Assembly (NCBI GenBank): GCA_017522105.1
Contig: JAFXAA010000019.1
Span: 1 to 50,483, forward strand
DNA: 50,483 nucleotides
Source of the DNA: Bacteroidales bacterium
GTDB lineage: Bacteria > Bacteroidota > Bacteroidia > Bacteroidales > P3
Direction of reading: 5' to 3'
Part shown: positions 8,986-50,483 of the stretch, piece after piece
Layout of the letters: every line of letters starts with the position of its first letter
Position numbering within the stretch: position 1 is the stretch's first letter
Notes under the pieces: model-generated
Seen by the model: only the letters and a program-made list of their open reading frames with translations
Databases searched by the model: none
Told to the model about the DNA's origin: nothing
Translations under genes and position numbers: made by a program

Positions 8986-9029
8986 CCGTAGAGGGGCCGT
9001 AGGGGCTCCGTAGGGGGTCCGTAGGGGCT
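8986..9029. repeat. 11-bp modular intergenic repeat, copy A
   Basis: Four tandem 11-mers: CCGTAGAGGGG (8986-8996), CCGTAGGGGCT (8997-9007), CCGTAGGGGGT (9008-9018) and CCGTAGGGGCT (9019-9029). It lies between the convergent folB and radC genes. It has only the G-rich half of the longer palindromes, preceded by TTCAGTATGACGG, a possible remnant of the ACTGAA module. Confidence 0.9.
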
Positions 9030-9102
9030 CTGTTTCGGGTGCTGACATTCAGTGTTTTGCAATAGTTGATTTTCTGCAGCGGTGACGATCTGCTCTGTGC
9101 TG

Positions 9103-9816
9103 TCAGATTTCGCCGTTGTCGTGGAAGCTGTAGTAGTCAGGGCGACCGTCGGGGTTGATGGCTATGATGATGTGTTCGGAGAGCTTGATGTCCAGCAGGT
9201 TGCCTGCTTCTGCCAGCCGCCGTGTGAGGGCGCGGTCCTGCTTGCTCGGTGTCAGGGTGCCCGACGGGTGGTTGTGGGCTACGGCTACACGTGTGGCCTT
9301 GGCTTCAAGAGCGCCGCGGAAGATGATGCGCTGATCGACATCGGTGGCGGTCTGGCCACCCATTGATATGCGCTGGCGGCCAAGCACTTTGTTGCGATTG
9401 TTGAGATAGACAGCCCAGAACTCCTCGTGGTCGAGGTCGACGAGTTGCGGCAGCAGGAGGGTGAAGAGCGATTTGCTGTCGGTCACGACGCTCTCCTGCC
9501 GGTCTTTGGCCTCGCTGTGCATGCGCCACCCGAGTTCGAGCGCGGCCATGAGTGTGGCGGCTTTGGCGGCGGCCATGCCCTTGAAAGTGCGCAACTGGCT
9601 GTAGTCGAAGCGCGAAAGGGTGACGAGGCTGTTGCCTGCGGCGGCGAGGATTTCTTTGGCCAGTTCCACAACGCTTTTGCCCGGCACGCCGGTGCGCATG
9701 AGGATGGCAAGGAGTTCGGCGTCTGTGAGTTGCTTTTTGCCTTGTGAAAGCAGGCGCTCGCGGGGTTTGTCTTCGTCGGCCCAGTCCTTGACGGTCAGAT
9801 AATTTTTTTCGTTCAT
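9103..9816 (-). CDS. radC: RadC family JAMM-domain protein
   Basis: The 237-residue protein has the N-terminal helix-hairpin-helix-like region (1-105, DKPRERLLSQGKKQLTDAELL) and a C-terminal JAB/MPN domain with the metal motif: Glu131 and H181-N-H183-PSG...SKQD194. JAMM proteins are Zn hydrolases, but RadC has no proven activity; its old name as a DNA-repair protein is doubtful, and it is often tied to genome plasticity. The length is typical. A minus-strand -7-like box TAACTTTG (9852-9845) lies 29 bases upstream of the start. It is divergent from secDF and convergent with folB across a repeat element. Confidence 0.95.
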   Translation of the reverse strand: MNEKNYLTVKDWADEDKPRERLLSQGKKQLTDAELLAILMRTGVPGKSVVELAKEILAAAGNSLVTLSRFDYSQLRTFKGMAAAKAATLMAALELGWRMHSEAKDRQESVVTDSKSLFTLLLPQLVDLDHEEFWAVYLNNRNKVLGRQRISMGGQTATDVDQRIIFRGALEAKATRVAVAHNHPSGTLTPSKQDRALTRRLAEAGNLLDIKLSEHIIIAINPDGRPDYYSFHDNGEI

Positions 9817-9872
9817 ATCTCGCTGTTATTCTATAATTTTTGTGCAAAGTTACACCTTTTTTTTCAAATTTC

Positions 9873-9903
9873 GTTGCCATGTCAATAAAATTTGCTATTT
9901 TTG
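9873..9903 (+). promoter_or_regulatory. Candidate promoter for secDF
   Basis: TATTTTTG (9896-9903) is a -7 box, with GTTG (9873-9876) 19 bases before it as an imperfect -33 box. It lies 47 bases upstream of the secDF start. TATTTTTGCA matches the usual sequence around the Bacteroidota -7 element. Confidence 0.55.
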
Positions 9904-9950
9904 CACATTCAAAGTAGAGTAAACAAAAAACAATAATATATACATAAACT

Positions 9951-12900
9951 ATGCAGAATAAAGGACTTATCAGATTTTTGGCATGGGCATTCGCATTGGT
10001 ATGTTTGTTCCAATTGTCGTTTACCGTTGTGACGAGCAGTGTCCAGAGCAAAGCCAGAAAGACAGCTGAAAACTACATCAAGAGCGAGCAGGTGCAGAGT
10101 TTTGTGGCCAACCGCACCGAGAACAGCGGCGACGCCCAGGTGCTTTTGGATTCGCTGCGCAACGCCAGCGAGGCACACTACCTTGACTCCATGGCCACCG
10201 AGAAAGTCTACCTCGGCTACACCTATCGTCAGTGCCAGAGTCGCGAAATCAGCCTCGGCCTCGACCTTAAGGGCGGTATGAACGTGATGCTTGAGGTTTC
10301 GACAGTGGATGTGGTGCGCGCTTTGGCCGACCACACCGAAGACACCCTCTTCAACCACGCCATCGACATCGCCTTGGCTAACCAGAAACGCACCACCAAC
10401 CGCGACTTCGTGTCGCTGTTCTACGATGCCATCCGCAGCCTCGACCCCAATGTGCAGCTCGCGTCCTATTTCAGCGGCCAGCTGCGCGACCAGATTAAAC
10501 TCGGCGACGACAACGACGCCGTCATCAAGGTGGTCCGCGAGGAAGCCGCCTCGGCTTATGACCGCACCTATCAAGTGCTGAGCCAGCGTATCGACAAGTT
10601 CGGCGTGGCGCAGCCCACCATACAGAAACTCAGCGCCTCGGAGCGTATCCTCGTGGAACTCCCCGGTGTCAAGGAGCCCGAGCGCGTGCGCAAACTCCTG
10701 CAGGGTACTGCCCAGTTGGAGTTCTGGCTGACCTACGACAACACTGAGGCCGCCCGCTACCTGATAGCCGCCGACGAGTATCTCGGCTCCATCAACAAGG
10801 GTGAGACCGTCGACACCGCCGCCGCTGCCGCCGAGGCCGAGGCTTTGGCCGAAGCCAAAGACAGCACCGAGGCTCTGCTCGACCAGCTGACCGCCGACAA
10901 CACCACCTCCGCCAGCGCCAGCAGCGTCGACCGCGAGGCTTTCGCCAAGGAGCACCCGCTGGTGGCTAAGCTGCAGCTCTATGTCGACAACAACGGCCTC
11001 CCCCTGCAGGGTCCCATCGTGGGACTGGCAGCAGGCAAAGACCGCGAGGCCATCAACGAGATGCTGGCCACGGCTGCCGCCAAGAAGGTGTTTGACACCC
11101 GCACCGTCAAGTTCCTTTGGTCGGCCAAGCCCGACGAGAACTTCGGTGGCGACGTCTATACGCTCTATGCTATCAAGATCACCACACGCGACGGTTCGGC
11201 CCTGCTCGACGGCGGCTGCATCAGCGACGCCCGTCAGGACTTCTCCAACGTGGGTGGCAATGAGATATCGATGACCATGAACAACGAGGGCGCCCGCGAG
11301 TGGAAACGCATCACTGGCGAGAACGTGGGCAACTGCATTGCCATCGTCCTCGACGATCAGGTCTATTCGGCACCGCGTGTCAACGGCGAGATTGCCGGCG
11401 GCCGCTCGTCCATCACCGGCGACTTCACCCTTGAGGAGGCCAAGGACTTGGCCAACATTCTGAAGAGCGGTAAGCTCCCCGCCCCTGCCGTCATCGTGCA
11501 GGAGGCTGTCGTTGGACCGTCGCTCGGTCAGGAATCCATCCGCAACGGTTTGCTGTCGTTCATCCTCGCCTTCGTCATTGTGATGGCTTACATGGTGTTC
11601 TTCTATAACCGTGCAGGCTGGGTGTCGGTGGCGGCCCTTATTACTAATGTATTCCTTCTTATTGGTGTGCTGGCATCCATCGGCACGGTGCTCACGCTGC
11701 CCGGCATCGCCGGTATAGTGCTGACCATGGCAATGGCTGTGGACGGCAACGTCATCATCTACGAGCGTATTAAGGAAGAGCTGCGTAGCGGCTCGAGTAT
11801 AGCCAATGCTGTGGAGGCCGGTTTCAAGAATGCCTATTCGGCCATCATCGACGGCCAGGTGACGACCTTCCTGCTGGGTTTGGTGCTCATCATGTTCGGC
11901 AGCGGTGCCGTGCAGGGCTTCGCAGTGACCCTCTGCATCGGTATTGTCACTTCGCTCTTCACATCCATCTTCATCACCCGTCTGATTATCGACAGCCGCG
12001 TGGACAAGAAGCGTACGATGACCTTCTCGTTCCCCTTCTCGGAGAACTTCCTGCGCAACGCCCACATTGATTTCCTCGGCAAACGCAAGACCTTCTATAT
12101 CATTGCCTGTGTTGCCATCCTGATTTGTGTCGGCAGCTTCGTTGCCCGCGGCCTGAGTTTCGGCATTGATTTCACTGGTGGCCGCACCTATGTGGTGCGC
12201 TTCGACCAGCCTGTCAACGCCGTCGATGTGCGTTCCGACCTGGCCAAGGAGTTTGAAGAGGCCCCCGAGGTGAAGACCTATGGCCCCAGCAACCAGCTGA
12301 AGATCACCACTAAGTATAAGATTGCCGAAGATGGTGACAATGTGAAGAACGAGATTGTGCAGAAGTTGTATAACGGCACGAGCAAATACTACAAAAACCC
12401 CATCAACATCGATGGCTTCAAGAGCACGGAAACAAACCCGCTGGGTATCATCCAGGCCGACCAGGTCGGCGGCACCATCGCTCACGACAACCTGATGCAC
12501 TCCATCTGGGCTGTCATCGGCGGTTTGCTCGTGATGTTTGTCTACATTGGCCTCCGCTTCCGCAGCTGGCGCTTCGGCGTGGGCTCCGTGACGGCTTTGG
12601 CTCACGATACTATTCTGGTTATCGGTATCTTCTCGCTGCTCTATGGTCTGCTGCCCTTCAACCTTGAGGTGGACCAGTACTTCATCTCGGCTGTGCTGAC
12701 GGTCATCGGCTACTCAATCAACGCCACGGTGGTTATCTTCGACCGCGTGCGTGAGTACCGCAAGCTTTACCCGAAGCGTGACCTCCGCACCCATATGAAC
12801 GATGCAATCAACTCCACGTTGGCGCGTACGGTGAACACATCCGGCACCACCTTCGTCACCCTGCTGATGATGTTCATCTTCGGCGGCGAGGTTATCCGTG

Positions 12901-13025
12901 GCTTCATCTTTGCCCTGCTGGTTGGTGTGCTCGTCGGCGTCTTCTCGTCGCTGTGCATCGCCTGCGCCGTGGTGTATGAGATTTCCGGCAAGCAGAAAAC
13001 CGCTGAAACCAAGGAGTTGGCATAA
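9951..13025 (+). CDS. secDF: Protein translocase subunit SecDF (fused)
   Basis: The 1,024-residue protein combines SecD (about 1-670) and SecF (about 690-1010) in one chain. SecD has the conserved LGLDLKGGMNVMLEV motif (residues 102-116), the large periplasmic region with P1 domains and the AGIVLTMAMAVDGNVIIYERIKEE membrane segment; SecF has LSFGIDFTGGRTYVVRF and a second NATVVIFDRVREY. SecDF uses the proton gradient to pull proteins out of SecYEG on the periplasmic side. Fused SecDF is usual in Bacteroidota. An Ala/Glu/Asp-rich stretch near residues 288-310 is low-complexity. It heads a run of five same-strand genes reaching the PorV-like gene, all of which depend on export. Confidence 0.97.
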   Translation: MQNKGLIRFLAWAFALVCLFQLSFTVVTSSVQSKARKTAENYIKSEQVQSFVANRTENSGDAQVLLDSLRNASEAHYLDSMATEKVYLGYTYRQCQSREISLGLDLKGGMNVMLEVSTVDVVRALADHTEDTLFNHAIDIALANQKRTTNRDFVSLFYDAIRSLDPNVQLASYFSGQLRDQIKLGDDNDAVIKVVREEAASAYDRTYQVLSQRIDKFGVAQPTIQKLSASERILVELPGVKEPERVRKLLQGTAQLEFWLTYDNTEAARYLIAADEYLGSINKGETVDTAAAAAEAEALAEAKDSTEALLDQLTADNTTSASASSVDREAFAKEHPLVAKLQLYVDNNGLPLQGPIVGLAAGKDREAINEMLATAAAKKVFDTRTVKFLWSAKPDENFGGDVYTLYAIKITTRDGSALLDGGCISDARQDFSNVGGNEISMTMNNEGAREWKRITGENVGNCIAIVLDDQVYSAPRVNGEIAGGRSSITGDFTLEEAKDLANILKSGKLPAPAVIVQEAVVGPSLGQESIRNGLLSFILAFVIVMAYMVFFYNRAGWVSVAALITNVFLLIGVLASIGTVLTLPGIAGIVLTMAMAVDGNVIIYERIKEELRSGSSIANAVEAGFKNAYSAIIDGQVTTFLLGLVLIMFGSGAVQGFAVTLCIGIVTSLFTSIFITRLIIDSRVDKKRTMTFSFPFSENFLRNAHIDFLGKRKTFYIIACVAILICVGSFVARGLSFGIDFTGGRTYVVRFDQPVNAVDVRSDLAKEFEEAPEVKTYGPSNQLKITTKYKIAEDGDNVKNEIVQKLYNGTSKYYKNPINIDGFKSTETNPLGIIQADQVGGTIAHDNLMHSIWAVIGGLLVMFVYIGLRFRSWRFGVGSVTALAHDTILVIGIFSLLYGLLPFNLEVDQYFISAVLTVIGYSINATVVIFDRVREYRKLYPKRDLRTHMNDAINSTLARTVNTSGTTFVTLLMMFIFGGEVIRGFIFALLVGVLVGVFSSLCIACAVVYEISGKQKTAETKELA

Positions 13026-13069
13026 AGAAATGACAAGCCTGTTGTAAGATACAGTAAAGGAAAAGATTA

Positions 13070-13429
13070 ATGAAGGCGATTTGGTTTATACTCATCGTGG
13101 TGCTTAGCTTCCTGCCGTCGCTTCTGGCCACTGCCAAGAAGTCGCGGATGGCTTCGGCTCCCGTGCTGGATGACGAAGAGGAAAGCAGCGATGAGCGCGA
13201 GGACGACGGCTTCTTTAGTTTTGACGATGAAGAGCCGGAGGTCGTGGCGCAACCGTCGTATGTCGCCTATGAGGCTCCCCAGCCCGAGGTGCAACGCACC
13301 CCGAAACCTGCTCCTGCATCGGTACAGGTTGAGCCGGAGGAGCTCCAGACAAGACCGGCTTTTGATCTTCGTCAGGCTGTCATCTATCAGACACTGTTGA
13401 ACAACAGGTATATAAATGCGGAAAATTAA
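13070..13429 (+). CDS. Small acidic single-pass membrane protein, unknown
   Basis: The 119-residue protein has one N-terminal membrane helix (about 3-21), a very acidic segment (32-58, DDEEESSDEREDD), a Pro/Val-rich linker (60-95) and a short C-terminal FDLRQAVIYQTLLNNRYI helix that looks like the conserved part. It sits 44 bases after secDF and 32 bases before the receptor gene on the same strand. I do not recognise the family. An acidic linker with a conserved tail suggests a tethered interaction peptide; any link with SecDF is inferred from position only. Confidence 0.75.
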   Translation: MKAIWFILIVVLSFLPSLLATAKKSRMASAPVLDDEEESSDEREDDGFFSFDDEEPEVVAQPSYVAYEAPQPEVQRTPKPAPASVQVEPEELQTRPAFDLRQAVIYQTLLNNRYINAEN

Positions 13430-13461
13430 CAGAATCAATAATATCTATACATGTAAACGCA

Positions 13462-16400
13462 ATGAGAATGTTTAGAAAAGTACTATTGACACTCGGACTC
13501 TTGCTGCTGGCGGAAGTGACCGCTTTGGCACAGGGCACGATGAAGGGTACGGTTGTAGACGCCAAGTCGAAGGAGCCGATGCCTTTCGTCAATGTTATTG
13601 CCAAGCAAGACGGCAAACAGGTGCTTGTCGGTGTGACCGACTTTGATGGTATCTATACCATTAAGCCGTTACCCGTCGGCAAGTATGACCTTGAAGTCAA
13701 GTTCGTCGGCTATGCTACCTACGTGCGTACCGGCATCAACGTGACGGCATCGGGCTTCACGATTGTCGACGTTGAACTCAACCCTTCGGCCACCGTGCTT
13801 GACGCTGTGGAGATTGTTGAGGAAAAGGTGCCTGTCATCGAGATTGGTACCGCAGAAAGCGGCCAGCGCCTTTCGAGCGACGATATCGCCCGCATGCCGG
13901 GTAACTCTGTCGAGAGCATCGTCGCTGCTGTGGGTGGCGTGGGCTACTCTGACGGCGGTACAGGCTCGGCCCGCGGTGAGGGCGGCATGGTGACCATGCA
14001 GGGCAATGTGCGTAAACGTACCAGCGTGAACGTGCCGAAGGACGCTATCGCCGAAATTCAGGTTATCCTCGGCGGTACGCCTGCCAGCATTGGTGAGGCT
14101 ATCGGCGGCACGCAGATTATCACCCTCAAGCCGCCAACGAGCCAGTTCAAAGGCATGGTGCGTTGGGAGGGCTATCTGGACTATCGCCTGCTCAACACAT
14201 TCATGGTTTACCTGACCGGTCCGGTGATCAAGAAGAACATAAAAAACAGCGACGGCTCTTCGCTGGAGCGCACGCTGGTGGGCTTCCGCTTCACTGGCCA
14301 GGCTCAGTATGAGAACTCGCCCTTCTACCGTGTCAAAGGGTACCGTTACCAGATTGTCAACGACGAGAAGGTGCGCATGATTGAGCAGTCGCCGCTGTCG
14401 TATGATCCCGTGTCGGGTGCTGTACGCTATACTGGTGAGACCTCATTGCGTGGTTCCGACTTCCATGAGATTACCCGTCTCACGAAGAAGGACTTTGACG
14501 GCGATGCCAGCCGTGTGCCGAACCTTCAGTATTACGGTGTGGCCATGGAGGGTGCCTTGGATTTCCGTTTCTCGGATTACGCCACTCTGACACTCACTGG
14601 AGAGTTCAGCGCCAGTCATTCGCCCAGCGCCTCCATCTCGCCTCTCACCATGCCTCTCACTGGCTCCACGGTCAGCGAGGGCATGAGCATGGGTCTGACT
14701 GTGGACTTCACGCAGCGCTTCCGCGACCCGGAGGTCTCCAATGAGGATGAGGCCAAGGCTTCGTCGCCCATCAAGAATGTGATGTACAACATCACTGGTA
14801 TGGTGCAGCGCAGCACAGCCAAGTCGTACAACGAGAACTACGGCAAGTCTATCAACGACATTTTCAAATACGGTTACATTGGCAAGTTTATTACGGAGAA
14901 ACAGCGTACATACGAGGAAAGGACTATAGATTATAATGGTGTGACGCGTACGGCAATGGTGCAGAACAACTGGAACGACAATGTCACTTATGTGAGTGGG
15001 TCTGAGTACAACCCCCTCCTTTCCAACTACAATGAGCAGCTGTTCCACAGCGATGAGTTCCGGGACATCCGCCCCTATCTCACGATGAAAGAATATATAC
15101 AGCAGTTCTACGGCTTGTATAATGGTGATTCCCCGGGAAGCATTTACGGCATGCTCTCCAATGTCGGCGTGCAGGGCGGCAGCTACGCCCTGTCCCAGAG
15201 CGACGCTCTGTATCTGCAGGCCAAAGCATCCGCCGATGTCCTCGGCCATGAAATAGAAATTGGCTTCCAGTATGACCAGCTTTGGGAGTCTTCCTACAGC
15301 TTGAGCGCCTACGGCCTGTGGGGCTTGATGCGCCAGAACGCCAACCGTCATATCCTGCAGTTGGATCTCAACAACCCCATCTACAGAACTCAGGGTTCGC
15401 AGCTTTATGTGGATTATAACCGCCTGCTGGATGCTTCGCAGCAGACTCCCTTTGATGCGGCCTTCCGTCAGTATCTGGCAAGCAACGGTCTCCTTGGCAG
15501 CGACCCCTCGCGCGAATGGATAGACATTGACCGTTTCATGCCCGAAGACTTCGTCAATGCCGGCGGTATAAACATGTTCTCGGCCAATGAGCTTATCAAT
15601 AGCGGCAACCCCTATGTCTCCTATGTCGGTTATGACCACACCGGCAAGAAGTACAATGGTGCCAACTGGTCGCTTGAGGAATACTTTAACCCTGGCGACA
15701 GCAAGTATATGAACCTCCCCTCGTTCTCTCCCATCTATATGGCTGGTTATATCCAGGATAAGTTCTACTTCCAGGATCTTATCTTCAATGTCGGTGTCCG
15801 TGTTGACTATTTCGACGGTAACCAGTACGTGATGAAAGACCCGTATCTGCTCTATGAGTCATACACTGTCGGCCAGTTGCGCGAACGTATCGCCAGCGGC
15901 ACGGCAATGTCGACAAATGCCATCTATGCGGGTGCTGGCGACAACTGGGTGCCTTATGTGGACTTTGTGCAGGATGAGACTACCACGTCGCTGCCCACCA
16001 TCAAGGGTTATCGTGATCCCGAAGGTAACTGGTATGACGCCACTGGTACGCAGGTCGCTTCTCCCAACAGCGTGAGCGGTAATTCGGGTAAACCCACTCC
16101 TTATCGTACTGCCGCTGGCCAGAAGTCTGTGACCGACGGTAAGGTGCATGTCGATGGCGTCTTTGAGCGCTATAAGCCGCAGATTGTGGCCATGCCACGT
16201 ATCGCCTTCTCTTTCCCCATTGGTGACAAGTCTCAGTTCAAGGCCAGCTACGATATTATTGCGCGCCGTCCTTCTTCCGGTTGGTCGGCAAGCTATTTGA
16301 GCTACCTCTATATGAGCCAGATTTCTTCAATCTCTAACCCCAACCTGAAGCCCGAACGCATCACCAACTATGAGTTGGGCTTCCAGCAGGCTCTAAACCA

Positions 16401-17250: not shown

Positions 17251-17275
17251 AGTCAACGTGAAAAAAAACAACAAG

Positions 17276-24529: not shown

Positions 24530-24582
24530 TCCACTGAAGAACGGCCGTAGGGGCTCCGTAGGGGCTCCGTAGGGACTCCGTC
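24530..24582. repeat. 11-bp modular intergenic repeat, copy B
   Basis: TCCACTGAAGAACGGCCG (24530-24547) leads into CCGTAGGGGCT (24545-24555), CCGTAGGGGCT (24556-24566), CCGTAGGGACT (24567-24577) and CCGTC. It has one module of the ACTGAA half and three of the G-rich half, so it reads like one arm of the long palindromes. It lies in the 406-base gap between the HIT gene and rpsA, which otherwise holds the terminator (24413-24444), the rpsA promoter and its leader. Confidence 0.9.
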
Positions 24583-35622: not shown

Positions 35623-35777
35623 GCCTCCTCACCCCTGCCTCCGGGCCTCCTCACCCCCGCCTTCCCTACGGAGTCCCTACGGCATTTCTTCAGTAGTTCT
35701 TCAGTAGTTCTTCAGTGTTTGACTGAAGAACTACTGAAGAACTACTGAAGAACTACTGAAGAAATGCCGTAGGGGAG
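35623..35777. repeat. 11-bp modular palindrome, copy C (42-bp perfect inverted repeat)
   Basis: 35675-35716 is the exact reverse complement of 35733-35774, with a 16-base spacer (35717-35732). Each arm has three ACTGAAGAACT-type 11-mers and a CCGTAGGG part. Left of the palindrome the 11-bp register continues: GCCTCCTCACC at 35623-35633 and again at 35645-35655 (22 bases apart), then CTTCCCTACGG and AGTCCCTACGG (35661-35682). The loop reads GTTTG. It lies between the divergent promoters of the glycogen synthase and purM-like units and is the main content of the 389-base gap 35537-35925. Confidence 0.95.
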
Positions 35778-35925: not shown

Positions 35926-37092
35926 ATGGACAAGTACAACCAGCGCGGAGTTTCCGCTACGAAGGAAGATGTGCACAATGCCATCAAGAATATCGACAAG
36001 GGTCTCTTCCCCAAGGCTTTCTGCAAGATTATACCCGACCTGCTGGGCTGTGACGCGCAGTATTGCAACATCATGCATGCCGACGGCGCTGGCACTAAGT
36101 CGAGCCTGGCCTACATGTACTGGCGCGAGACGGGCGACCTCAGCGTGTGGAAGGGTATCGCCGTGGATGCCATCGTGATGAACACCGACGACCTGCTCTG
36201 CGTGGGGGCGCTGGACCACATTCTGCTCTCCTCCACCATAGGGCGCAACAAGCAGCTGGTGCCGGGCGAGGTCATCTCCGCCGTCATCAACGGCACCGAG
36301 GAATTCTGCCAGTCGATGCGCGACATGGGTATCGACATGGTGCTCACGGGCGGCGAGACGGCCGACGTGGGCGACCTGGTGCGCACCATCATCGTGGACA
36401 GCACGGTGACGGCCCGCATGCGCCGCGCCGACGTGGTGGACAATGCCCGCATCAAGGCCGGCAACGTCATCGTGGGCCTCGCCAGCTTCGGCCAGGCCAA
36501 GTACGAGACGGCCTACAACGGCGGCATGGGCAGCAACGGCCTCACCTCGGCGCGCCACGACGTGTTCTCGCACGTCTACGCCGAGAAGTACCCGATGTGC
36601 TACGACCACAACCTGCCCGACAGTGTGGTCTTCTGCGGCACCAAGCTGCTGACCGACCCCACCGAGGTGCCGGGCGTGGACGCCGGCCACATGGTGCTCT
36701 CGCCCACACGCACCTATGCCCCCATAATACGCCGTGTGCTCGACGAGTACCGCCCGAAGATTGACGGCATGATACACTGCTCCGGCGGCGCGCAGACCAA
36801 GGTGCTGCACTTCGTCGAGAACCTGCACGTGGTCAAGGACAACCTCTTCCCCGTGCCGCCGCTGTTCCGCATGATTCACGACGAGAGCCAGACCGACTGG
36901 CAGGAGATGTACAAGGTGTTCAACATGGGCCACCGCATGGAGCTCTACACCGACGAGGAGACGGCCCGCGGCATCATCGACATCAGCCGCAGCTTCGGCG
37001 TCGACGCCCGCGTGGTGGGCCGCGTGGAGGAGGCCCCGAAGGCGCAGGTGACGGTGAAGAGCGAGAACGGTGTGTACGAGTATTTTGCGTAA
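35926..37092 (+). CDS. AIR synthase-related protein (PurM-like)
   Basis: The 388-residue protein starts at ATG 35926; upstream frame is open but crosses the promoter. It has the PurM superfamily layout: an N-terminal HADGAGTKSSLAYMYWRETGD glycine/Asp segment, VMNTDDLLCVGA (ATP/Mg-binding Asp pair), VLTGGETADVGDL, and a C-terminal domain with MIHCSGGAQTKVLHF. PurM closes formylglycinamidine ribonucleotide to AIR in purine synthesis. This is the Bacteroidota version, longer than E. coli PurM (345 residues) and often annotated only as AIR synthase-related. No other purine gene is adjacent, so the assignment rests on sequence. Confidence 0.88.
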   Translation: MDKYNQRGVSATKEDVHNAIKNIDKGLFPKAFCKIIPDLLGCDAQYCNIMHADGAGTKSSLAYMYWRETGDLSVWKGIAVDAIVMNTDDLLCVGALDHILLSSTIGRNKQLVPGEVISAVINGTEEFCQSMRDMGIDMVLTGGETADVGDLVRTIIVDSTVTARMRRADVVDNARIKAGNVIVGLASFGQAKYETAYNGGMGSNGLTSARHDVFSHVYAEKYPMCYDHNLPDSVVFCGTKLLTDPTEVPGVDAGHMVLSPTRTYAPIIRRVLDEYRPKIDGMIHCSGGAQTKVLHFVENLHVVKDNLFPVPPLFRMIHDESQTDWQEMYKVFNMGHRMELYTDEETARGIIDISRSFGVDARVVGRVEEAPKAQVTVKSENGVYEYFA

Positions 37093-37331: not shown

Positions 37332-37368
37332 TTTGTTGTGTGTATATTGTAAAATCTTTGTATCTTTG
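37332..37368 (+). promoter_or_regulatory. Candidate promoter for the YitT-family gene
   Basis: TATCTTTG (37361-37368) is a perfect -7 box followed by CA. The nearest TTTG (37332-37335) gives a 25-base spacer, longer than usual; ATTG (37346-37349) is too close. It lies 54 bases upstream of the ATG. Confidence 0.55.
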
Positions 37369-37422
37369 CAGTTCCGCCGCAGCGTGTGGCGCTGTGGTAT
37401 AAGAACTAATTTATAAGCATTT

Positions 37423-38379: not shown

Positions 38380-38421
38380 CCGACAGGGCAATAAAAAGGT
38401 TGTCTGTACGTTAATAGTGTT

Positions 38422-40139: not shown

Positions 40140-40146
40140 TAGAACC

Positions 40147-42906: not shown

Positions 42907-42968
42907 GCCGCTGTACGGGTGCTGTTTAGTTTGTCCGTCAGACGGGCAGGCGCGGATTTATTAACAAC

Positions 42969-43009
42969 AGGCTGCGGATTTCTTTTTGAAGTCCGCAGCC
43001 TTCGTTTTG
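42969..43009 (+). terminator. Terminator after the PorE-like gene
   Basis: A perfect 10-bp stem AGGCTGCGGA (42969-42978) / TCCGCAGCCT (42992-43001) is followed by TCGTTTTG. It closes the unit from the YitT-family or glycosyltransferase gene onward. Confidence 0.85.
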
Positions 43010-43055
43010 ACAAATTGCAGTAATTTTGCCGCCGAAAACTATACCTGCCAAGCCT

Positions 43056-43865: not shown

Positions 43866-43946
43866 CGTTGCCCGCACCTCTTTTGTGCCGATATATGGCG
43901 AACCTTCCATCACGGCACCGCCGCTCCTTGATTTCCCGTCGCAGCC

Positions 43947-44033
43947 GGTACGGAGTCCCTACGGACCCCCTACGGCCGTTCTTCAGTGGAAAGCCGAAAA
44001 TCAGCCGTAGGGACTCCGTGGTGGCTCCGTACC
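43947..44033. repeat. 11-bp modular palindrome, copy D (imperfect)
   Basis: Left arm GGTACGG (43947-43953), AGTCCCTACGG (43954-43964), ACCCCCTACGG (43965-43975) then CCGTTCTTCAGTGG; right arm CCGTAGGGACT (44005-44015), CCGTGGTGGCT (44016-44026) and CCGTACC (44027-44033). Outer ends GGTACGG/CCGTACC pair exactly. The inner CGGCCGTTCTTCAGTGGA is the reverse complement of the start of copy B (24530-24547). It lies in the 381-base gap between the hydrolase and gdhA, whose only other content is the gdhA promoter. Confidence 0.9.
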
Positions 44034-44170
44034 AGAGGCGTCCCTTTTCTCTCCCCGCCACATGCTGCAATCGGATTCCGTCAGCAGGGTCTGCGCCGCA
44101 AAAACCAGCTGCTTACATCCTACCACGCCCACTCATTCGGACCGCCTTATGGCAAAAAAAGAAAAAAAAT

Positions 44171-44201
44171 TTTGTGCAATTGGAAAAAAGGTGTACATTT
44201 G
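44171..44201 (+). promoter_or_regulatory. Promoter of gdhA
   Basis: TTTG (44171-44174) and TACATTTG (44194-44201), 19 bases apart, match the consensus; the spacer contains GGAAAAAA (44182-44189). It lies 45 bases upstream of the ATG. Confidence 0.85.
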
Positions 44202-44246
44202 CTGAACTGAAAAAAAGTTAAAGTTTAACCTAATTAATTAAATACC

Positions 44247-45590
44247 ATGAAAGTAAAAGAAATTATGGCCAACCTGGAGGCCAAACATCCCGGTGAAAAC
44301 GAGTACTTGCAGGCCGTCCGCGAGGTTCTGGAAACCATCGAAGAAGAATACAACAAGCACCCCGAGTTCGAGGCTGCCAAGATCGTCGAGCGCATTGTCG
44401 AGCCCGACCGTATCTTCACCTTCCGTGTGACCTGGGTTGACGATAAGGGCCAGGTGCAGACCAACCTCGGCTACCGCGTGCAGTTCAACGCCGCCCTCGG
44501 TGCCTACAAAGGCGGTCTCCGCTTCCACAAGGCTGTGAACGTCTCCATGCTGAAGTTCCTCGGCTTCGAGCAGATCTTCAAGAACAGCCTCACCATGCTG
44601 CCTCTCGGCGGTGGTAAGGGCGGTTCGGACTTCGACCCCGTCGGAAAGAGCGACGCCGAAATCATGCGATTCTGCCAGGCCTTCATGTATGAGCTTTGGC
44701 GCAACATCGGCCCCGATCAGGACAGCCCCGCTGGTGACGTGGGTGTAGGCGGCCGTGAGATTGGCTACCTCTATGGTGCCTACAAGAAACTCGCCCGCGA
44801 GCACTCGACTGGTGCTCTGACCGGCAAGAGCTACGGCTGGGGTGGTTCCCTCATCCGTCCCGAGGCCACCGGCTTCGGCGCCATCTACTATGTGGAGCGT
44901 ATGGTCAAGCAGCAGGGTGACAAGCTGAAAGGCAAGAAGATTGCCCTCTCCGGCTTCGGTAACGTTGCTTGGGGTGCCGCCACCAAGGCTGTCGAACTCG
45001 GTGCCAAGGTCGTCGCCATCAGCGGCCCCGACGGTGTCTGCGAGATTCCCGACGGTATCAACAAGAAGATGATTGACTACATGCTCGAAATGCGCGCTTC
45101 CAACCGCAACAAAGTCGAGGATATGGCCAAGAAGTTCCCGAAACAGTGCAAGTTCACTGCCGGCAAGAAGAGCTGGGTTGTGAAGTGCGACATCGCCATG
45201 CCCTGCGCCTTCCAGAACGAGCTCGACGAGAAGGATGCCAAGCAGCTCCTGAAGAACGGCGTGCAGTATGTCGCCGAGGTCTCCAACATGGGTTGCCAGC
45301 CCGCCGCCATCGCCGCCATCCAGAAGGCCAAAGTGCCCTTCGGTCCCGGCAAGGCTGTCAACGCTGGTGGTGTTGCCACCTCTGGCCTCGAAATCTGCCA
45401 GAACGCCGAGCACCGCAACTGGACTGCCGAAGAGGTTGACAAGAACCTCCACACCATCATGAACAACATCTATGACATGTGCGTCGAGCACGGCAAGGAG
45501 AAGGACGGTACCATCAACTACGTGAAGGGTGCCAACATCGCCGGCTTCATGCGCGTCGCCAAGGCCATGGTTGCCCAGGGCATCATCTAA
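44247..45590 (+). CDS. gdhA: NADP-specific glutamate dehydrogenase
   Basis: The 447-residue protein has the substrate domain with Lys88 (GAYKGGLRFH), LPLGGGKGGSDFDPVGKSD with catalytic Lys124, and Asp164 (SPAGDVGVGGREIGYLYG), then a Rossmann domain with ALSGFGNVAWGAA (about 234-246). The ~450-residue size and NADP-type sequence fit the hexameric, assimilatory enzyme, which makes glutamate from 2-oxoglutarate and ammonia, an important step for gut-type Bacteroidota. It has its own promoter and terminator. Confidence 0.97.
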   Translation: MKVKEIMANLEAKHPGENEYLQAVREVLETIEEEYNKHPEFEAAKIVERIVEPDRIFTFRVTWVDDKGQVQTNLGYRVQFNAALGAYKGGLRFHKAVNVSMLKFLGFEQIFKNSLTMLPLGGGKGGSDFDPVGKSDAEIMRFCQAFMYELWRNIGPDQDSPAGDVGVGGREIGYLYGAYKKLAREHSTGALTGKSYGWGGSLIRPEATGFGAIYYVERMVKQQGDKLKGKKIALSGFGNVAWGAATKAVELGAKVVAISGPDGVCEIPDGINKKMIDYMLEMRASNRNKVEDMAKKFPKQCKFTAGKKSWVVKCDIAMPCAFQNELDEKDAKQLLKNGVQYVAEVSNMGCQPAAIAAIQKAKVPFGPGKAVNAGGVATSGLEICQNAEHRNWTAEEVDKNLHTIMNNIYDMCVEHGKEKDGTINYVKGANIAGFMRVAKAMVAQGII

Positions 45591-45610
45591 TCGGATATAC
45601 CCGTAAAAGA

Positions 45611-45640
45611 AAAGGCCGTCAGTGTTGGCGGCCTTTTTCT
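45611..45640. terminator. Bidirectional terminator between gdhA and the phospholipid genes
   Basis: Stem AAAGGCCG (45611-45618) / CGGCCTTT (45629-45636) with a 10-base loop has TTTCT on the plus side and TTTTCTTTTAC on the minus side, so it can stop both gdhA and the convergent CDP-alcohol transferase gene. Confidence 0.85.
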
Positions 45641-45649
45641 ATTGTCGCT

Positions 45650-46348
45650 TTATCGCCGTTTCGGCGGGTCTATTTTTGCGTACTTGCGCGCGTCGTTGGT
45701 GATGGTTGCGATGTAGATGACCGTCAGCAAGGCCACGATAGCAGCGGCCACAAGGTCAAGCAGTGTGAAACTGTCGCCGCCAAGGGATATGCTGAAGGTG
45801 GTGACCGATGGCACTGCAATCAGCACCGTGTTGGCGATAATGATGAGCATGCGGAACTCCGTGGGGCCAAGCTTGGCATACGTGAGGCGGAATTCGCTCT
45901 TGAGGTGGGCGTTGATGCTCACGTTAATGGTCATGAACAAGTAGAGGATGAATGCCGCCAGGGCCAAATCCATGTGCATCAGCGGCGACAGGCCGGCGCC
46001 TACGAACATCAGCGCCTCGTTGACGCAGTCGATGGTGTGGTCGAGGTAGTAGCCGTATATTGGGCGCTGGGTGTTGCGCACGCGTGCCAGGGTACCGTCG
46101 AGCGAGTCGCCGTACCAGTTGATGACGAGGCCTGCCGAGCTGAGCCATAGCCAGTCGATGCTGTATCGTGTGAGTACGAAGCCCAGCCCTACAATGAAGG
46201 CTCCAGCGGTGCCGACCAGTGTCAGCATGTCCGACGTAACCCACCGCGGCTGCCTTTGGGCCAGCCAGATGAGGGCTTTGCGCTCCAGTTTGTTGATAAC
46301 GGATGTCTGTATCCGTTCCGCTTGTCTTATTTCGTTGTGTTCTGCCAT
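45650..46348 (-). CDS. CDP-alcohol phosphatidyltransferase family protein
   Basis: The 232-residue membrane protein has the family motif D81-x2-D84-G85-x2-A88-R89...G99-x3-D103-x3-D107, whose aspartates bind Mg and the CDP-alcohol, and about five or six membrane helices. These enzymes join CDP-diacylglycerol (or CDP-alcohol) and an alcohol in phospholipid synthesis. Which alcohol is used cannot be told; the long N-terminal part before the motif suggests a form other than PgsA. Its start lies 4 bases after the stop of the cardiolipin synthase-like gene, so both act in lipid metabolism as one unit. Confidence 0.9.
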   Translation of the reverse strand: MAEHNEIRQAERIQTSVINKLERKALIWLAQRQPRWVTSDMLTLVGTAGAFIVGLGFVLTRYSIDWLWLSSAGLVINWYGDSLDGTLARVRNTQRPIYGYYLDHTIDCVNEALMFVGAGLSPLMHMDLALAAFILYLFMTINVSINAHLKSEFRLTYAKLGPTEFRMLIIIANTVLIAVPSVTTFSISLGGDSFTLLDLVAAAIVALLTVIYIATITNDARKYAKIDPPKRR

Positions 46349-46352
46349 TGTG

Positions 46353-47576
46353 CTAAAGTTGTGATGCTATTGGAAGTGTTATGACCTCGCCGCAGCGTTC
46401 CTTGAGGCTGCGGTGGCGCCATGCGGCTGGGTCGATGTAGGTTGATACGGCCTCGTCGGCGAGGAAGACCTCTTTCAGTTCTGCAGCATAGGCGCTGCTG
46501 TCCACCACAGCGGCTATCTCCTCGCACAGCAGGTGGCTGCGCGGGTCTATGTTGCACGAGCCTACCACTGCCACGCTGTCGTCGGCCACGATTATTTTTG
46601 AGTGGATGAATCCTTCGCCGTAGAAGCCTATCTTCACGCCGTCGGCCATCATCGAAGCGAAGTGGCGGCGCGACGCATACTGCGTTGTCTCTCCGCGGTC
46701 GCCGCGTGGCGGCACGAGCACGCGCACGTCGACCCCTCGCCTTGCGGCGCGGCGAAGAGCGTCCTTCACTTCTTTGGTGGGTATGAAGTAGGGCGTCTCA
46801 AGGTAGACGTAGGATGTGGTCCTGTCGAGCAGGCTCACTGTGAAGTGCATGAGTTGAGGCCCGTTGCCCAGCGGGCCGCTGGTGATTATGCGCACGGGCA
46901 GCAGGCCTGTCGCCGCTGTCACAGGAATGTGCGTCGGTGTGTCGAGTTTTACCCCCGTGGCATACTGCCAGTCCATGGCGAATGATGCCTGCACCGCCGC
47001 CGCCGCGGGGCCCTCGATGCGCACCATCGTGTCGCGCCAGCGTCCCCAGCCTAGCCCTTGGAGGTAGCGGTCGGCGATATTCATGCCGCCGACGTATGCC
47101 ACGCGTCCGTCGATGATGACAGTCTTGCGGTGGTTGCGATAGTATCCGCGCCGTGTGATGAACGGAATGTGCACTCTGCCGAACCCTGCCGTGGCAACCC
47201 CTTGGCGCTCCAGTATGCGGTAATACCAGCGCCACGGATGGCACACCAGGTCGTCGTATAGCAGCCTCGCCTCCATACCGTCGCCGGCGCGCTTTGCCAG
47301 CAGGCTTCCGAGGCGCTGTCCCGTGGCGTCGGGCTCTACCTTGAAAAACTGCACGTAAGTGTGGTGTTTTGCCGACTTGATGTCGGCCAGCATGTCGTCG
47401 AACATCGGGCCGAAAGCCGTGTAGGTGGTTATGCTGTTGCCCTCGGTCGGTGTGTCTATCATATCGTTGTGCTGCAGTGCTCTAAGACCTTTCTCGCGCG
47501 GTGGCCGCGTGAGCCATAGCACCCATGCAGCAAAGCTCAGGACGATGCCGGCAACGAGTATGTACAATATCTTCAT
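46353..47576 (-). CDS. Cardiolipin synthase-like phospholipase D protein
   Basis: The 407-residue protein starts at MKILYILVAG (47576); the frame is open upstream but lacks sense and would run through the aroQ promoter. It has one N-terminal membrane helix (about 3-22) and two HKD motifs: H149-x-K151-x4-D156 (NHRKTVIID...GGMN) and H325-x-K327-x4-D332 (IHSKIIVAD...GSCNIDPRS). This is the ClsA-type layout, with catalysis joining two phosphatidylglycerols (or PG and another lipid). The second N-terminal helix of many Cls proteins is missing. It forms a unit with the CDP-alcohol transferase, 4 bases downstream. Confidence 0.92.
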   Translation of the reverse strand: MKILYILVAGIVLSFAAWVLWLTRPPREKGLRALQHNDMIDTPTEGNSITTYTAFGPMFDDMLADIKSAKHHTYVQFFKVEPDATGQRLGSLLAKRAGDGMEARLLYDDLVCHPWRWYYRILERQGVATAGFGRVHIPFITRRGYYRNHRKTVIIDGRVAYVGGMNIADRYLQGLGWGRWRDTMVRIEGPAAAAVQASFAMDWQYATGVKLDTPTHIPVTAATGLLPVRIITSGPLGNGPQLMHFTVSLLDRTTSYVYLETPYFIPTKEVKDALRRAARRGVDVRVLVPPRGDRGETTQYASRRHFASMMADGVKIGFYGEGFIHSKIIVADDSVAVVGSCNIDPRSHLLCEEIAAVVDSSAYAAELKEVFLADEAVSTYIDPAAWRHRSLKERCGEVITLPIASQL

Positions 47577-47673
47577 CTCTGTTTCATAACGGCGGCGTGT
47601 TGCTTTTATTGTGTGTCTTCGCTTGTGTTTTTTTATGTCGCCGCACCGGTAGCAATGAGTCGTGGAAGGAAAA

Positions 47674-47706
47674 TTTGTGCCAATCGGAAAAAACTTTGTA
47701 TCTTTG
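47674..47706 (+). promoter_or_regulatory. Promoter of aroQ
   Basis: TTTG (47674-47677) and TATCTTTG (47699-47706), 21 bases apart; the spacer reads TGCCAATCGGAAAAAACTTTG, the same pattern as the rpsA and purM-like promoters. It lies 25 bases upstream of the ATG. Confidence 0.85.
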
Positions 47707-47731
47707 CACCGCAAAAAACGATTGACCAACG

Positions 47732-48151
47732 ATGAAACACATAGAGATAATAAACGGCCCCAACCTTAACCTCACGGGGCTTCGCGAGCCGGAAGTCTAC
47801 GGCAAGGTGACCATGGACGAGTGCGTCGGCGCGCTCCGCAAGCAGTTCCCCGAGGTGGAGATAGGCTACTTCCAGAGCAATGTGGAGGGGGAGCTTGTCT
47901 CGCGCATACAGCAGGTCGGGTTCTCGTGCGACGGTATCATCGTTAATCTCGGTGGCTACAGCCATACCAGCGTGGCCTTGCGCGACGCCTTGCTTGCTGT
48001 CCCTGCCCCCAAGGTGGAGGTGCACCTGAGCAATATCTTCGCCCGCGAGGAGTACCGCCACCACTCGCTTGTCACCAGCGCCTGCCGCGGCATGATTTGC
48101 GGCTTGGGCCTGCAGGGCTATTCTTTCGCCCTGCAAGCCCTGCTCGCCTGA
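47732..48151 (+). CDS. aroQ: Type II 3-dehydroquinate dehydratase
   Basis: The 139-residue protein has the active-site signature: NGPNLNLTGLREPEVYG with Arg18 and Tyr23, VNLGGYSHTSVALRDAL with Asn72 and His78, and VEVHLSNIFAREEYRHHS with catalytic His98 and Arg109. It converts 3-dehydroquinate to 3-dehydroshikimate in the aromatic amino acid pathway as a dodecamer. The usual NP(G)AY(T)HTS reads NLGGYSHTS and NIHARE reads NIFARE, but the catalytic residues are all present. It is slightly shorter than the 145-150 usual. It has its own promoter and is convergent with panC (20-base gap). Confidence 0.95.
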   Translation: MKHIEIINGPNLNLTGLREPEVYGKVTMDECVGALRKQFPEVEIGYFQSNVEGELVSRIQQVGFSCDGIIVNLGGYSHTSVALRDALLAVPAPKVEVHLSNIFAREEYRHHSLVTSACRGMICGLGLQGYSFALQALLA

Positions 48152-48171
48152 TGTAGGTGCTGCCTCTGCTG

Positions 48172-49071
48172 TCAGAATTTCACGATGTCGATGAGGCGCA
48201 CGCCGTCGAGCCACACGGCTATGCAGCCCACGGCGCCGAGGTCGCCGGCCTCGCTCCAGTCCGCTATGGGCTGGAGTGTGATGGCGTCGACAATCTCGAA
48301 GTATTCAGGCTCGAAGCGCAGTCCGTCAGGGCAGTCGTTCACCTCGTGCCACGAAGCCAGCGTGTCGAGCACCCATTCCTTCACGTCGTCCACCTCCTCG
48401 TATTCGGCCATCTCGGCGGCCTGTTCCAGAGTGGCGTTGATGGCTGGGGCCATCTGGCGTGCAGCTGGCGAGAGGCGCATATTTCGGCTTGAGAGCGCCA
48501 GGCCGTCGTCGGCCCTCACTATGGGGCATGGCACCAGCTCTATGGGGTATTTGATCTGCGCCAGCAGCGCGCGGATGACGGCAATCTGCTGGTAGTCCTT
48601 CTCGCCGAAGTAGGCGCGCTTGGGCTGCGCCAAGTCGAACAGCCGGCGCACCACCACGGCCACACCGCTGAAGTGGCCCGGACGCCGCGGCCCTTCCATC
48701 ACCTCCTCCACAGGCCCGAAGTGGTACACCTCCTTGGGCTCGCCGTCGGGGTACATCTCGTCGACAGTCGGCGTGAAGGCCAGCAGTTCCTTGGCGCGGC
48801 CCTCCGTGCGGGCAATGAGACCCTCGATGAGCTTCATGTCGGCGTCTATCGTGCGCGGGTACTTCTCCAAGTCCTCTTTGTTGTTGAACTGGATGGGGTT
48901 GACAAAAAGGCTCACCACCACCATGTCGTTTTCCTTCAGGGCACGCTCGATGAGCGAGAGATGCCCCTCGTGCAGGGCTCCCATGGTGGGCACGAGACCT
49001 ATCTCAAGTCCCTGTTTTTTTGCTTCTTCTACTGCCGCTGTAAGCTCTGCGGCCTTTGTTACTTGTTTCAT
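48172..49071 (-). CDS. panC: Pantothenate synthetase
   Basis: The 299-residue protein has the HIGH-type ATP motif H34-x-G-H37 in LVPTMGALHEGHLSLI, VVVSLFVNPIQF, YFGEKDYQQIAVIRAL and the SSRNMRLSP (KMSKS-like) segment. It joins pantoate and beta-alanine with ATP to form pantothenate (CoA precursor). It is slightly longer than the usual 280-285. It is the last gene of a minus-strand unit: TsaC-like gene, holin-family gene, panC, the last two 6 bases apart. Confidence 0.97.
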   Translation of the reverse strand: MKQVTKAAELTAAVEEAKKQGLEIGLVPTMGALHEGHLSLIERALKENDMVVVSLFVNPIQFNNKEDLEKYPRTIDADMKLIEGLIARTEGRAKELLAFTPTVDEMYPDGEPKEVYHFGPVEEVMEGPRRPGHFSGVAVVVRRLFDLAQPKRAYFGEKDYQQIAVIRALLAQIKYPIELVPCPIVRADDGLALSSRNMRLSPAARQMAPAINATLEQAAEMAEYEEVDDVKEWVLDTLASWHEVNDCPDGLRFEPEYFEIVDAITLQPIADWSEAGDLGAVGCIAVWLDGVRLIDIVKF

Positions 49072-49077
49072 ATCGTG

Positions 49078-49542
49078 TCAGTCTTTTATTTCTTCGTATG
49101 GTGTAAACCCCTCGTCGTCGGTGTCGTCGTCCTGGCGTTTGCGGAGTTCTTTGCGTTGCAGGTAGCGGTTGGGCAGCTCCAGCAGGTAGTTCACCGTCGT
49201 GAGCACCAGGCTGAAGAGCAGGGCCGAGCCGAAGTTGCTCACCTCGAAGCCGCCCACGATGCCCGAAGCCATGAGGATGATGATGGCGTTGATGACGAAC
49301 AGGAACAGGCCGAGGGTCACCACCGTCACGGGCAGCGTCACCACTATCAGTATCGGCCGCACCAGGTTGTCGAGCAGCGAGATGACCACCGCTGTCAGGA
49401 GCACGGCCCAGAACGACGTCACCTCGACGCCCGGCAGCAGCCAGGCCCCCACCATCACGGCGATGCCGAGCACGACGATGCGTGTCAGGCAACCTCCGTT
49501 GCCGCTGTAGAACGTGTCTCCATTGTTGATTGTTATTTTCAT
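49078..49542 (-). CDS. Holin-like (YvlD/phage_holin_4_2 family) membrane protein
   Basis: The 154-residue protein has four membrane helices (about 20-38, 44-65, 68-92, 104-124) with the family motif LLDNLVRPILIVVTLPVTVVTLGLF (57-81) and a charged C-terminal tail (PNRYLQRKELRKRQDDDTDDEGFTPYEEIKD). This family is often annotated as phage holin but is chromosomal and widespread, with no proven lytic role. Nothing nearby is phage-like. It lies 41 bases after the TsaC-like gene and 6 bases before panC. Confidence 0.85.
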   Translation of the reverse strand: MKITINNGDTFYSGNGGCLTRIVVLGIAVMVGAWLLPGVEVTSFWAVLLTAVVISLLDNLVRPILIVVTLPVTVVTLGLFLFVINAIIILMASGIVGGFEVSNFGSALLFSLVLTTVNYLLELPNRYLQRKELRKRQDDDTDDEGFTPYEEIKD

Positions 49543-49583
49543 GTTTTTCAGTAGTTAAGTAGATAAGGCAAATGTTTCTGCTG

Positions 49584-50198
49584 CTAATCCATGATTCCTT
49601 TGCCCTGGCGCACCAGCTCTATGCCGTCGCTGCAGTCTATCACCGTCGAGGGGTCGGGGTCTGCTATGCCGCCGTCCACCACCACGTCCACGCGTCCGCC
49701 GAAGCGCTCGTGTATCAGTTCCGGGTCGGTGTAGTTCTCTACCTCGTCGTCCTCGCCGATGGGACGCACGGAGGTGGCTATCAGCGGCATGCCGAGTTCC
49801 TCTACCACCGCACGCAGTATGCCGTTGTCCGGCACGCGTATGCCTATGGTCTTGTTGCTGTTCTGGTAGTTGCGCGGCACCGCGCCCGATGCCTCCATGA
49901 TGAACGTGAAAGGCCCCGGCAGGCAGCGCTTGAGCAGCGCGAACACGTCCTTGTCCATGGCCCGCACATATTCGCTCGCCTGGCTCAGCGAGGAGCACAG
50001 CATCGAGTATTTTGCCTGTTTGAGCTTGAACCCTTTGAGCTGTGCTATCGCCTCCACGCCGCGCTTGTTGTCGAGGGCACAGGCAAAGGCATAGAGGGTG
50101 TCGGTAGGCAGTATGGCCACGCCGCCGTCGCGCAGCATGTCGGCTATGCGCCTCACTTCCCGCACGTTGGGGTTGTCGTTGTAAAGCTTCGTTATCAT
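49584..50198 (-). CDS. Threonylcarbamoyl-AMP synthase (TsaC/Sua5 family)
   Basis: The 204-residue protein starts at MITKLYNDNPNVREV (50198); upstream frame overlaps the promoter. It shows the YrdC fold hallmarks: GVAILPTDTLYAFACALDNKRGVEAIAQLKGF (about 25-56), LPGPFTFIMEASGAVPRNY and TIGIRVPDNGILRAVVEELGMPLIATSV. These enzymes make threonylcarbamoyl-AMP from Thr, bicarbonate and ATP for the universal tRNA modification t6A37. No Sua5 C-terminal domain is present, so it is the short form. A minus-strand TACCTTTG (-7 box) lies at 50229-50222. It heads the unit with the holin-like and panC genes. Confidence 0.94.
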   Translation of the reverse strand: MITKLYNDNPNVREVRRIADMLRDGGVAILPTDTLYAFACALDNKRGVEAIAQLKGFKLKQAKYSMLCSSLSQASEYVRAMDKDVFALLKRCLPGPFTFIMEASGAVPRNYQNSNKTIGIRVPDNGILRAVVEELGMPLIATSVRPIGEDDEVENYTDPELIHERFGGRVDVVVDGGIADPDPSTVIDCSDGIELVRQGKGIMD

Positions 50199-50221
50199 CT
50201 TTTCTGTCGCTTTTCGGCGTG

Positions 50222-50229
50222 CAAAGGTA
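50222..50229 (-). promoter_or_regulatory. Candidate -7 box of the TsaC-like gene
   Basis: TACCTTTG on the minus strand, followed by CACGC, lies 24 bases upstream of the ATG. No TTTG is found at the expected -33 distance, so the promoter call is partial. Confidence 0.5.
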
Positions 50230-50351
50230 CGCAAAAAAATCCAATATATGCCGCCTCCTTGTAAAAATATCACTTGGCATGCCCCAACCGTCTGCCATCC
50301 AGGACCTCCACGCGGGACGGATTCGCCCCCCTATCCAGCCGGTTCCTCCCC

Positions 50352-50483
50352 GGAGTCCCTACGGAGCCCCTACGGCATTTCTTCAGTAGTTCTTCAGTAG
50401 TTCTTCAGTCAAACACTGAAATACTACTGAAGAACTACTGAAGAACTACTGAAGAAATGCCGTAGGGGCTCCGTAGGGGCTCC
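50352..50483. repeat. 11-bp modular palindrome, copy E (45-bp perfect inverted repeat, runs off the edge)
   Basis: 50365-50409 is the exact reverse complement of 50426-50470; with the next module (one mismatch) the pairing reaches 50352 and 50483, the last base of the window. Modules: AGTCCCTACGG, AGCCCCTACGG, then ATTTCTTCAGT and two AGTTCTTCAGT on the left; ACTGAAATACT, two ACTGAAGAACT, ACTGAAGAAAT and two CCGTAGGGGCT on the right. Loop CAAAC (50410-50414), the reverse complement of the copy C loop. It lies upstream of the TsaC-like gene. Confidence 0.95.

Follow-up and report, generated by a model that had tools for sequence, protein, structure and literature searches.

Arrays with a fixed 11-bp period occupy shared intergenic sites with species-specific sequence in a Bacteroidales genus

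Repeat arrays in the window

The window analysed here, 50,483 bases in length, is one whole contig (C16) of the 2.28-Mb, 38-contig genome G000 of a Bacteroidales bacterium. An earlier note on this DNA described five palindromes, all between genes and all built from two 11-mers, CCGTAGGGGCT and ACTGAAGAACT, and we found that each of the five places carries at least one of the two (Table 1). At no more than one mismatch, the window contains 16 matches to CCGTAGGGGCT against 0.71 expected, a number that none of 100 shuffles reached, and 15 matches to ACTGAAGAACT against 0.65 expected; 14 of the former and all 15 of the latter fall within the five copies. Four copies do lie between two called genes. 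The fifth follows the last called gene and runs up to the end of the contig, so that it may be incomplete. DNA folding supported a palindrome at three of the sites, with z scores of −21.0 (50352–50483), −17.2 (35664–35777) and −5.2 (43947–44033), but the other two are one-sided tandem arrays (−0.05 for 24530–24582 and −0.98 for 8986–9029). The joint use of both 11-mers did not hold throughout either: the copy at 8986–9029 has no ACTGAAGAACT within one mismatch, although those at 24530 and 43947 each have a single near-copy of it. The copy originally delimited as 35623–35777 begins with about 40 bases of C-rich flank that hold no modules.

Table 1 Arrays with an 11-bp unit in the window
Position	Strand	Feature	Context
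234–272	+	Extra 11-bp array in a single orientation, ACGGCTACTAA/ACGGCTACAAG	Beside 7-bp arrays
8986–9029	+	Tandem B modules (CCGTAGGGGCT type), one-sided array	Flanked by a FolB-domain gene (+) and a RadC-domain gene (−)
24530–24582	+	One-sided array, a single A followed by three B modules	Flanked by a HIT-domain gene and an S1-domain gene
35664–35777	.	Long palindrome, B2 A3 loop(GTTTG) A4 B1	Between two divergent genes
43947–44033	.	Imperfect palindrome, B modules and one A module	Between two tandem genes
50352–50483	.	Long palindrome, B2 A3 loop(CAAAC) A4 B2; arms called at 58 bp	Truncated where the contig ends

The count of five copies in 50 kb overlooked the array at 234–272. Its unit, which is nearly alike in G000 and in G067, a second genome of the genus, also forms arrays at C10:147858 in G000 and at C4:72463, C8:9887, C8:87395 and C22:33913 in G067, and several of these sites adjoin heptamer arrays. 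Such arrays appear to be a class more conserved than the palindromes, to which they may be related. Tandem arrays with a 7-bp unit (CCACTGT and AACTCAT types) occupy positions 275–335, 451–483 and 626–659 of the window, the last of them within a NUDIX ORF (470–994, minus strand). Distance-7 repeats numbered 125 per Mb in the genus sample described below, against 35 per Mb in other genera, and the heptamers are many and different.

Abundance, module order and spread

The earlier note had proposed searching the complete genome, and this search showed that the family is not confined to the window contig and has far more copies than five. Tandem pairs of CCGTAGGGGCT occur 214 times in the 2.28-Mb genome (at most three mismatches in 22) and tandem pairs of ACTGAAGAA(C/A)T occur 313 times, while the reversed control patterns of both module pairs gave no match in G000. 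We also counted exact repeats at set distances (runs of at least 9) in 823,566 bases of G000, from contigs picked without regard to repeat content, and in 800 kb of G067. At distance 11 there were 168 per Mb in G000 and 182 per Mb in G067, compared with 12 and 8 per Mb at the control distance of 10 and 2 and 9 per Mb at 13. Among long hairpins collected de novo, the best arm lag was 11 (at least 70% match) in 27 of 28 from G000 (824 kb) and 26 of 32 from G067 (800 kb); in 400 kb of other genera this was the case for none of six. The hairpins revealed further modules, ACGGTTGTTCT/ACGGTTGTTTA in G000 and ATCGTTGAAGT mainly in G067. Few arrays lay inside called genes (8 of 66 in the G000 sample and 2 of 79 in the G067 sample), and scaling the sampled 66 gives an estimate of about 180 arrays in the G000 genome; by similar scaling from the samples, we estimate that at least 100 gene spacers per genome hold an array. 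The letters of the family vary far more than such module searches detect. Thus the claim of a dispersed family with constant 11-bp modules in variable number was borne out genome-wide, mostly in intergenic positions, and in relatives. An assembly artefact is unlikely, as other genomes carry the family; some contig ends lie in elements, as repeats would give.

Within the elements, the modules follow a consistent order. We found 109 gaps with at least two modules by exact patterns (49 in G000 and 60 in G067), of which 87 hold both orientations, and in all 87, as judged by eye, minus modules come before plus modules. When one mismatch was allowed, a minus hit closed 3 of 27 module clusters. From the loop outwards, A-type modules are followed by B-type modules, with few exceptions in this order. 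In the commonest hairpin, the loop is flanked by three A modules in either arm (9 of 21 in G000 and 15 of 27 in G067). Arm types at the module junction were alike in 10 of 17 hairpins from G000 (6.9 expected) and 6 of 19 from G067 (9.4 expected), an inconsistent match that leaves arm-by-arm correction, or compensatory changes between arms, unsupported as a general rule.

The letters of these modules are found in a limited set of genomes. The A pair, of the ACTGAAGAA(C/A)T type, was present in 33 of 190 family genomes: 12, all in the genus, had at least 10 matches, 9 had two to six, and 12 had one, near control level. The B pair was found in 9 of the 120 genomes of the genus, and an exact scan for it across 84,980 species genomes, among which the genome itself and very near ones may be absent, returned one other genome, RUG061. 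Exact scans of viral contigs gave no hits for either module pair, Rfam at its gathering score matched no family at the repeats (one tRNA was its only match in the window), and a literature search, judged by titles and abstract openings, found no paper describing such a repeat.

We sampled the genus more widely by taking a 20-kb stretch from each of 20 species (400 kb) and compared these with 20 stretches from other genera. Distance-11 repeats numbered 95 per Mb in the genus and 8 per Mb in the other genera, where there were 3 runs in 2 of 20 stretches. At least one such run occurred in 15 of the 20 genus stretches, a count in which at least one run is of low complexity, and 2 of 23 arrays lay inside called genes. 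Distance-10 repeats were also somewhat raised (38 versus 5 per Mb). The 11-bp period is a trait of the genus. The long palindromic form is well established only for G000 and G067, as 400 kb from the 20 other genus species held five long hairpins (12 per Mb, versus 15 per Mb in other genera), three of them with period 11; long palindromes, which predominate in G000 and G067, were found in only 3 of the 20 species. Some palindromes of the genus are perfect yet quite differently lettered, for example with arms of TGTCCGCTTGT or TGTACGCTATA.

Two further observations concern single genomes. In G087 (L229, 15673–16037), about 360 bp hold seven different 11-bp tandem duplications, as opposed to the usual single-word arrays. 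G108 gave 15 matches to the reversed control pattern; this genome has its own 11-bp word, ACTCCCTGATG, and another 11-bp family may be the source of its control hits.

Shared sites and differing modules

We compared gaps between G000 and G067, where 29 of 156 G000 gaps had an orthologue in the G067 sample. An array was also present in the orthologous G067 gap for 11 of the 13 G000 gaps that hold one, against 1 of the 16 array-free gaps (P = 2 × 10−5). By matched flanks, 12 of 15 arrays had an array in the G067 gap, three being less sure (G067 gap longer than 1.4 kb). At these shared sites the letters are often unlike, for example CCGTAGGGGCT versus CCGAAGGGGGG. The G067 gap orthologous to the one at 8986–9029 holds CCGAAGGGGGG-type units, and the place of 35664–35777 is taken in G067 by a palindrome of D and A modules with the loop GTGGC; the short site C15:6905 is nearly the same in both genomes.

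Site sharing extends across the genus. The gap upstream of the S1-domain gene, which holds the array at 24530 of the window, contains a distance-11 run (at least 8) in 20 of 30 species, mostly with different 11-mers, and other distances gave such runs in 0–3 species, except 22, a multiple of 11, with 17. In a second gap, which precedes the gene at 35926, 7 of 28 usable species had such a run, with 1–4 species at other distances except 22, with 8. This count replaces 9 of 29, after a run of N in G009 was dropped and a poly-A match in G013 was left uncounted; G090 was too short.

The loops differ in the same manner as the modules. CAAAC/GTTTG closes 17 of 21 A-type hairpins in G000 and none of 27 in G067, and GCNGC closes 20 of 27 in G067 and 2 of 21 in G000. 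At one site, with flanks 97–98% identical (above 12 or 13 of the 14 other sites), the loops are GTTTG and GCAGC; this one case fits a transferred stretch that may later have conformed to its new genome. Elsewhere, G000 at C15:33037 and G067 at C13:107660–108069 have flanks that are 98–99% identical around an intervening stretch of about 300–400 bp, including the array, that is largely unlike, a difference that looks like local replacement. The two genomes also differ by presence or absence of an array at C15:20045 and C15:81960, where one flank is merely 74–77% identical, too diverged for a target duplication to be read. The hairpins collected de novo do have inverted arms.

When units from 28 species were aligned, with rotation and strand left free, they had a weak core in common, WCCGWA, of 7.5 bits, compared with at most 6.6 bits in 60 shuffles. 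One unit per species was chosen by us, and G022, G117, G052 and G087 were omitted for units that were of low complexity, in genes or many and different. Given this shared core, the units probably descend from one ancestral word or have related reader proteins. Taken together, the arrays are uniform within a genome and divergent across species at shared sites, the pattern of satellite-like concerted evolution, with uniformity measured in G000 and G067 only. The earlier note was right to see a dispersed family of constant modules but could not have revealed that, at a given site, the letters vary by species and the period of 11 persists.

Position relative to promoters and candidate explanations

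Genes and promoters are predictions here, the latter from a scan for the Bacteroidota promoter box TAnnTTTGC. In G000 and G067 combined, 104 of 162 sides had a box between the element and the gene, and 14 had one on the far side of the element; a side could count in both. Because the box mostly lies between element and gene, the elements are mostly outside predicted transcription units in these two genomes. Predicted terminators preceded only 5/21 and 2/21 of the elements in tandem gaps. Arrays occupied 24 of 46 divergent gaps in G000, compared with 23 of 93 tandem and 3 of 17 convergent ones (divergent versus tandem, P = 0.002); the corresponding counts in G067 were 37 of 47, 21 of 88 and 9 of 17 (P = 1 × 10−9). 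Among gaps of 250–700 bp, the divergent and tandem counts were 18 of 32 versus 20 of 53 in G000 and 32 of 39 versus 16 of 42 in G067. The 20-species sample had no significant divergent bias (6 of 27 versus 5 of 49 tandem gaps, P = 0.18; convergent, 5 of 18). Within divergent gaps, the element centre lay at 0.49 (s.d. 0.16) and 0.50 (s.d. 0.11) of the gap in the two deeply read genomes, and exactly one array was found in 34 such gaps in G067 (17.1 expected) and 22 in G000 (14.8 expected). We rejected the idea that the basic unit is a promoter-oriented half array: where a tandem gap held a single orientation, it pointed toward or away from the promoter in 4 and 1 cases in G000 and 4 and 3 in G067, and most tandem gaps have both orientations.

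The explanation that we favour, at roughly even probability, is that these are genus-restricted, inherited, satellite-like 11-bp intergenic arrays, uniform within a species, that would act as DNA between promoters. It builds on the structure, period, polarity, shared sites and species-specific letters described above and on the promoter-upstream position in two genomes. In G000 and G067, the canonical element is a palindrome with a central 5-nt loop, about three modules of one kind to either side of it and a second kind farther out, with outward polarity. Elements pass by inheritance at set positions in promoter-upstream spacers, most of all those of divergent gene pairs, and within a species their modules and loops are alike, most simply through ectopic gene conversion. 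Because modules and loops would be homogenised within each species, the letters could differ by species while the 11-bp step stays. One possible role is that of phased binding arrays for a lineage-specific protein, with one module per turn; alternatively, the elements may form a cruciform or topological buffer for the negative supercoiling expected between divergent promoters, insulating neighbours. In both cases they would work as DNA, not RNA.

A serious rival to this functional reading, to which we give somewhat less than an even chance, is a neutral or selfish old 11-bp minisatellite, homogenised by recombination and surviving where it is least harmful, with the step merely inherited. Neutral decay together with recent spread would explain much of the pattern. 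The degenerate core common to the species units is what common descent predicts, few arrays lie within called genes (8/66 and 2/79) and most lie outside predicted transcripts, and C15:20045 and C15:81960 differ in presence between genomes. Such a minisatellite is harder to reconcile with the 37 of 47 divergent gaps occupied in G067, where arrays are centred and mostly number one each, and with tandem gaps of similar length (250–700 bp) holding fewer arrays than divergent gaps.

A more specific version of the favoured reading, in which the arrays act as DNA between promoters, is speculative, and we consider it rather unlikely. Each species would have its own 11-bp word, much like a dialect, repeated once per helical turn between promoters, and a fast-evolving putative reader would insulate promoters or organise the nucleoid; word and reader would change together while the step, polarity and sites persist. 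Eukaryotic satellite DNA under concerted evolution has a fixed unit length and a sequence that is uniform within and divergent between species. The present arrays resemble it in keeping the unit length, with letters alike within a species and unlike between species, but satellites form large tandem blocks, whereas the bacterial element is dispersed over many gene spacers. Cyanobacterial STRR (short tandemly repeated repetitive) sequences, which have a conserved 7-bp unit and are not known to have a palindromic grammar, are similar in that short tandem units of fixed length are scattered in spacers. The usual account of extragenic repeats invokes a transposase and a fixed consensus, but in this genus species have sites and unit length in common and differ in the letters. 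Because this combination recurs in an estimated 100 or more spacers per genome, concerted evolution of dispersed bacterial DNA becomes measurable, across a genus of 120 genomes. The pattern also points to a testable DNA-level role between divergent promoters.

It is improbable that the arrays are REP/BIME- or MITE-like elements moved in trans by a RAYT or other transposase. Hundreds of near-identical module pairs, fixed polarity and a modular make-up would suit such movement, G000 and G067 each have one Y1_Tnp gene, and the one in G000 has a B-like array about 1.1 kb away (L112). However, sites are common to different species, and the suggestion that a RAYT-like gene might track the repeat failed: in a search for Y1/RAYT-type genes only, 7 of the 12 genomes classed as repeat-rich by the A module alone had Y1_Tnp, as did 66 of 108 others (P = 1.0). 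The search found none in G034, which is 97% complete and has 286 matches, or in G071, which is 98% complete and has 92. Of 30 Y1 loci, 22 were free of distance-11 runs, and the total of 14 such runs in 94 kb is close to the genus rate. The arrays had been likened to REP/BIME repeats, and like REP/BIME elements with RAYT (GTAG and CGTC families; PMC3733652), they are short extragenic palindromes in high copy, often composite. REPs are reported to lie mainly between unidirectional and convergent ORFs (PMC3733652), whereas the present elements lie upstream of predicted promoters and favour divergent pairs in G000 and G067. They further differ in stepping by 11 bp, in having arms as long as about 58 bp, in mostly promoter-upstream and often divergent sites, in showing no RAYT association and in module letters that vary by species at the same site. 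GTAG or CGTC does not stand at the foot of a 20–40-bp stem–loop: GTAG lies inside the paired arm in G000, many G067 units have GAAG, and about 4 of 28 species units have GTAG (by eye).

BrickBuilt, a MITE/minisatellite of Porphyromonas gingivalis, is reported to consist of 23-nt direct repeats with a leader and tail, in 19 copies in ATCC 33277 (PMC4596501). It shares with our arrays its occurrence in Bacteroidales, its intergenic position and its tandem units in an element with small inverted ends (PMC4596501). The unit here is 11 bp instead of 23 nt with leader and tail, the arrays are palindromic in the two deeply read genomes and occupy an estimated 100 or more sites, and their units vary across the genus. 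The modules abut, in agreement with the earlier remark that there are no CRISPR-like spacers.

RNA hairpins serving as terminators, 3′-end stabilisers or RNase III-type substrates are very improbable, for although fold stability is very high and 11 bp would suit one turn of A-form RNA, which has about 11 bp per turn, the elements are found on the upstream side of predicted promoters and between divergent genes, which also speaks against the 3′-end stability role raised previously, their stems have no trailing T-tract (by eye), and in two aligned gaps (window 24530 and C13:66417) a separate terminator-like hairpin lies ahead of the element.

We also considered the hairpin nuclease SbcD. SbcD (TIGR00619) was absent above the cut-off from G000, G067, G034, G077, G029 and G049, among others, and present in the repeat-rich genomes G071, G043, G024, G031 and G110; by hand count, 57 of the 120 genus genomes have it. 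Distance-11 runs were found in all 10 sampled species without SbcD and in 5 of 10 with it (P = 0.03, kinship ignored), and SbcD was present in 5 of 12 repeat-rich genomes versus 52 of 108 others (P = 0.77; genus counts by hand). As repeat-rich genomes with SbcD exist, we rejected its loss as a requirement. The elements provide naturally occurring long palindromes in genomes where no SbcD was found, and loss of this nuclease may help long palindromes to persist.
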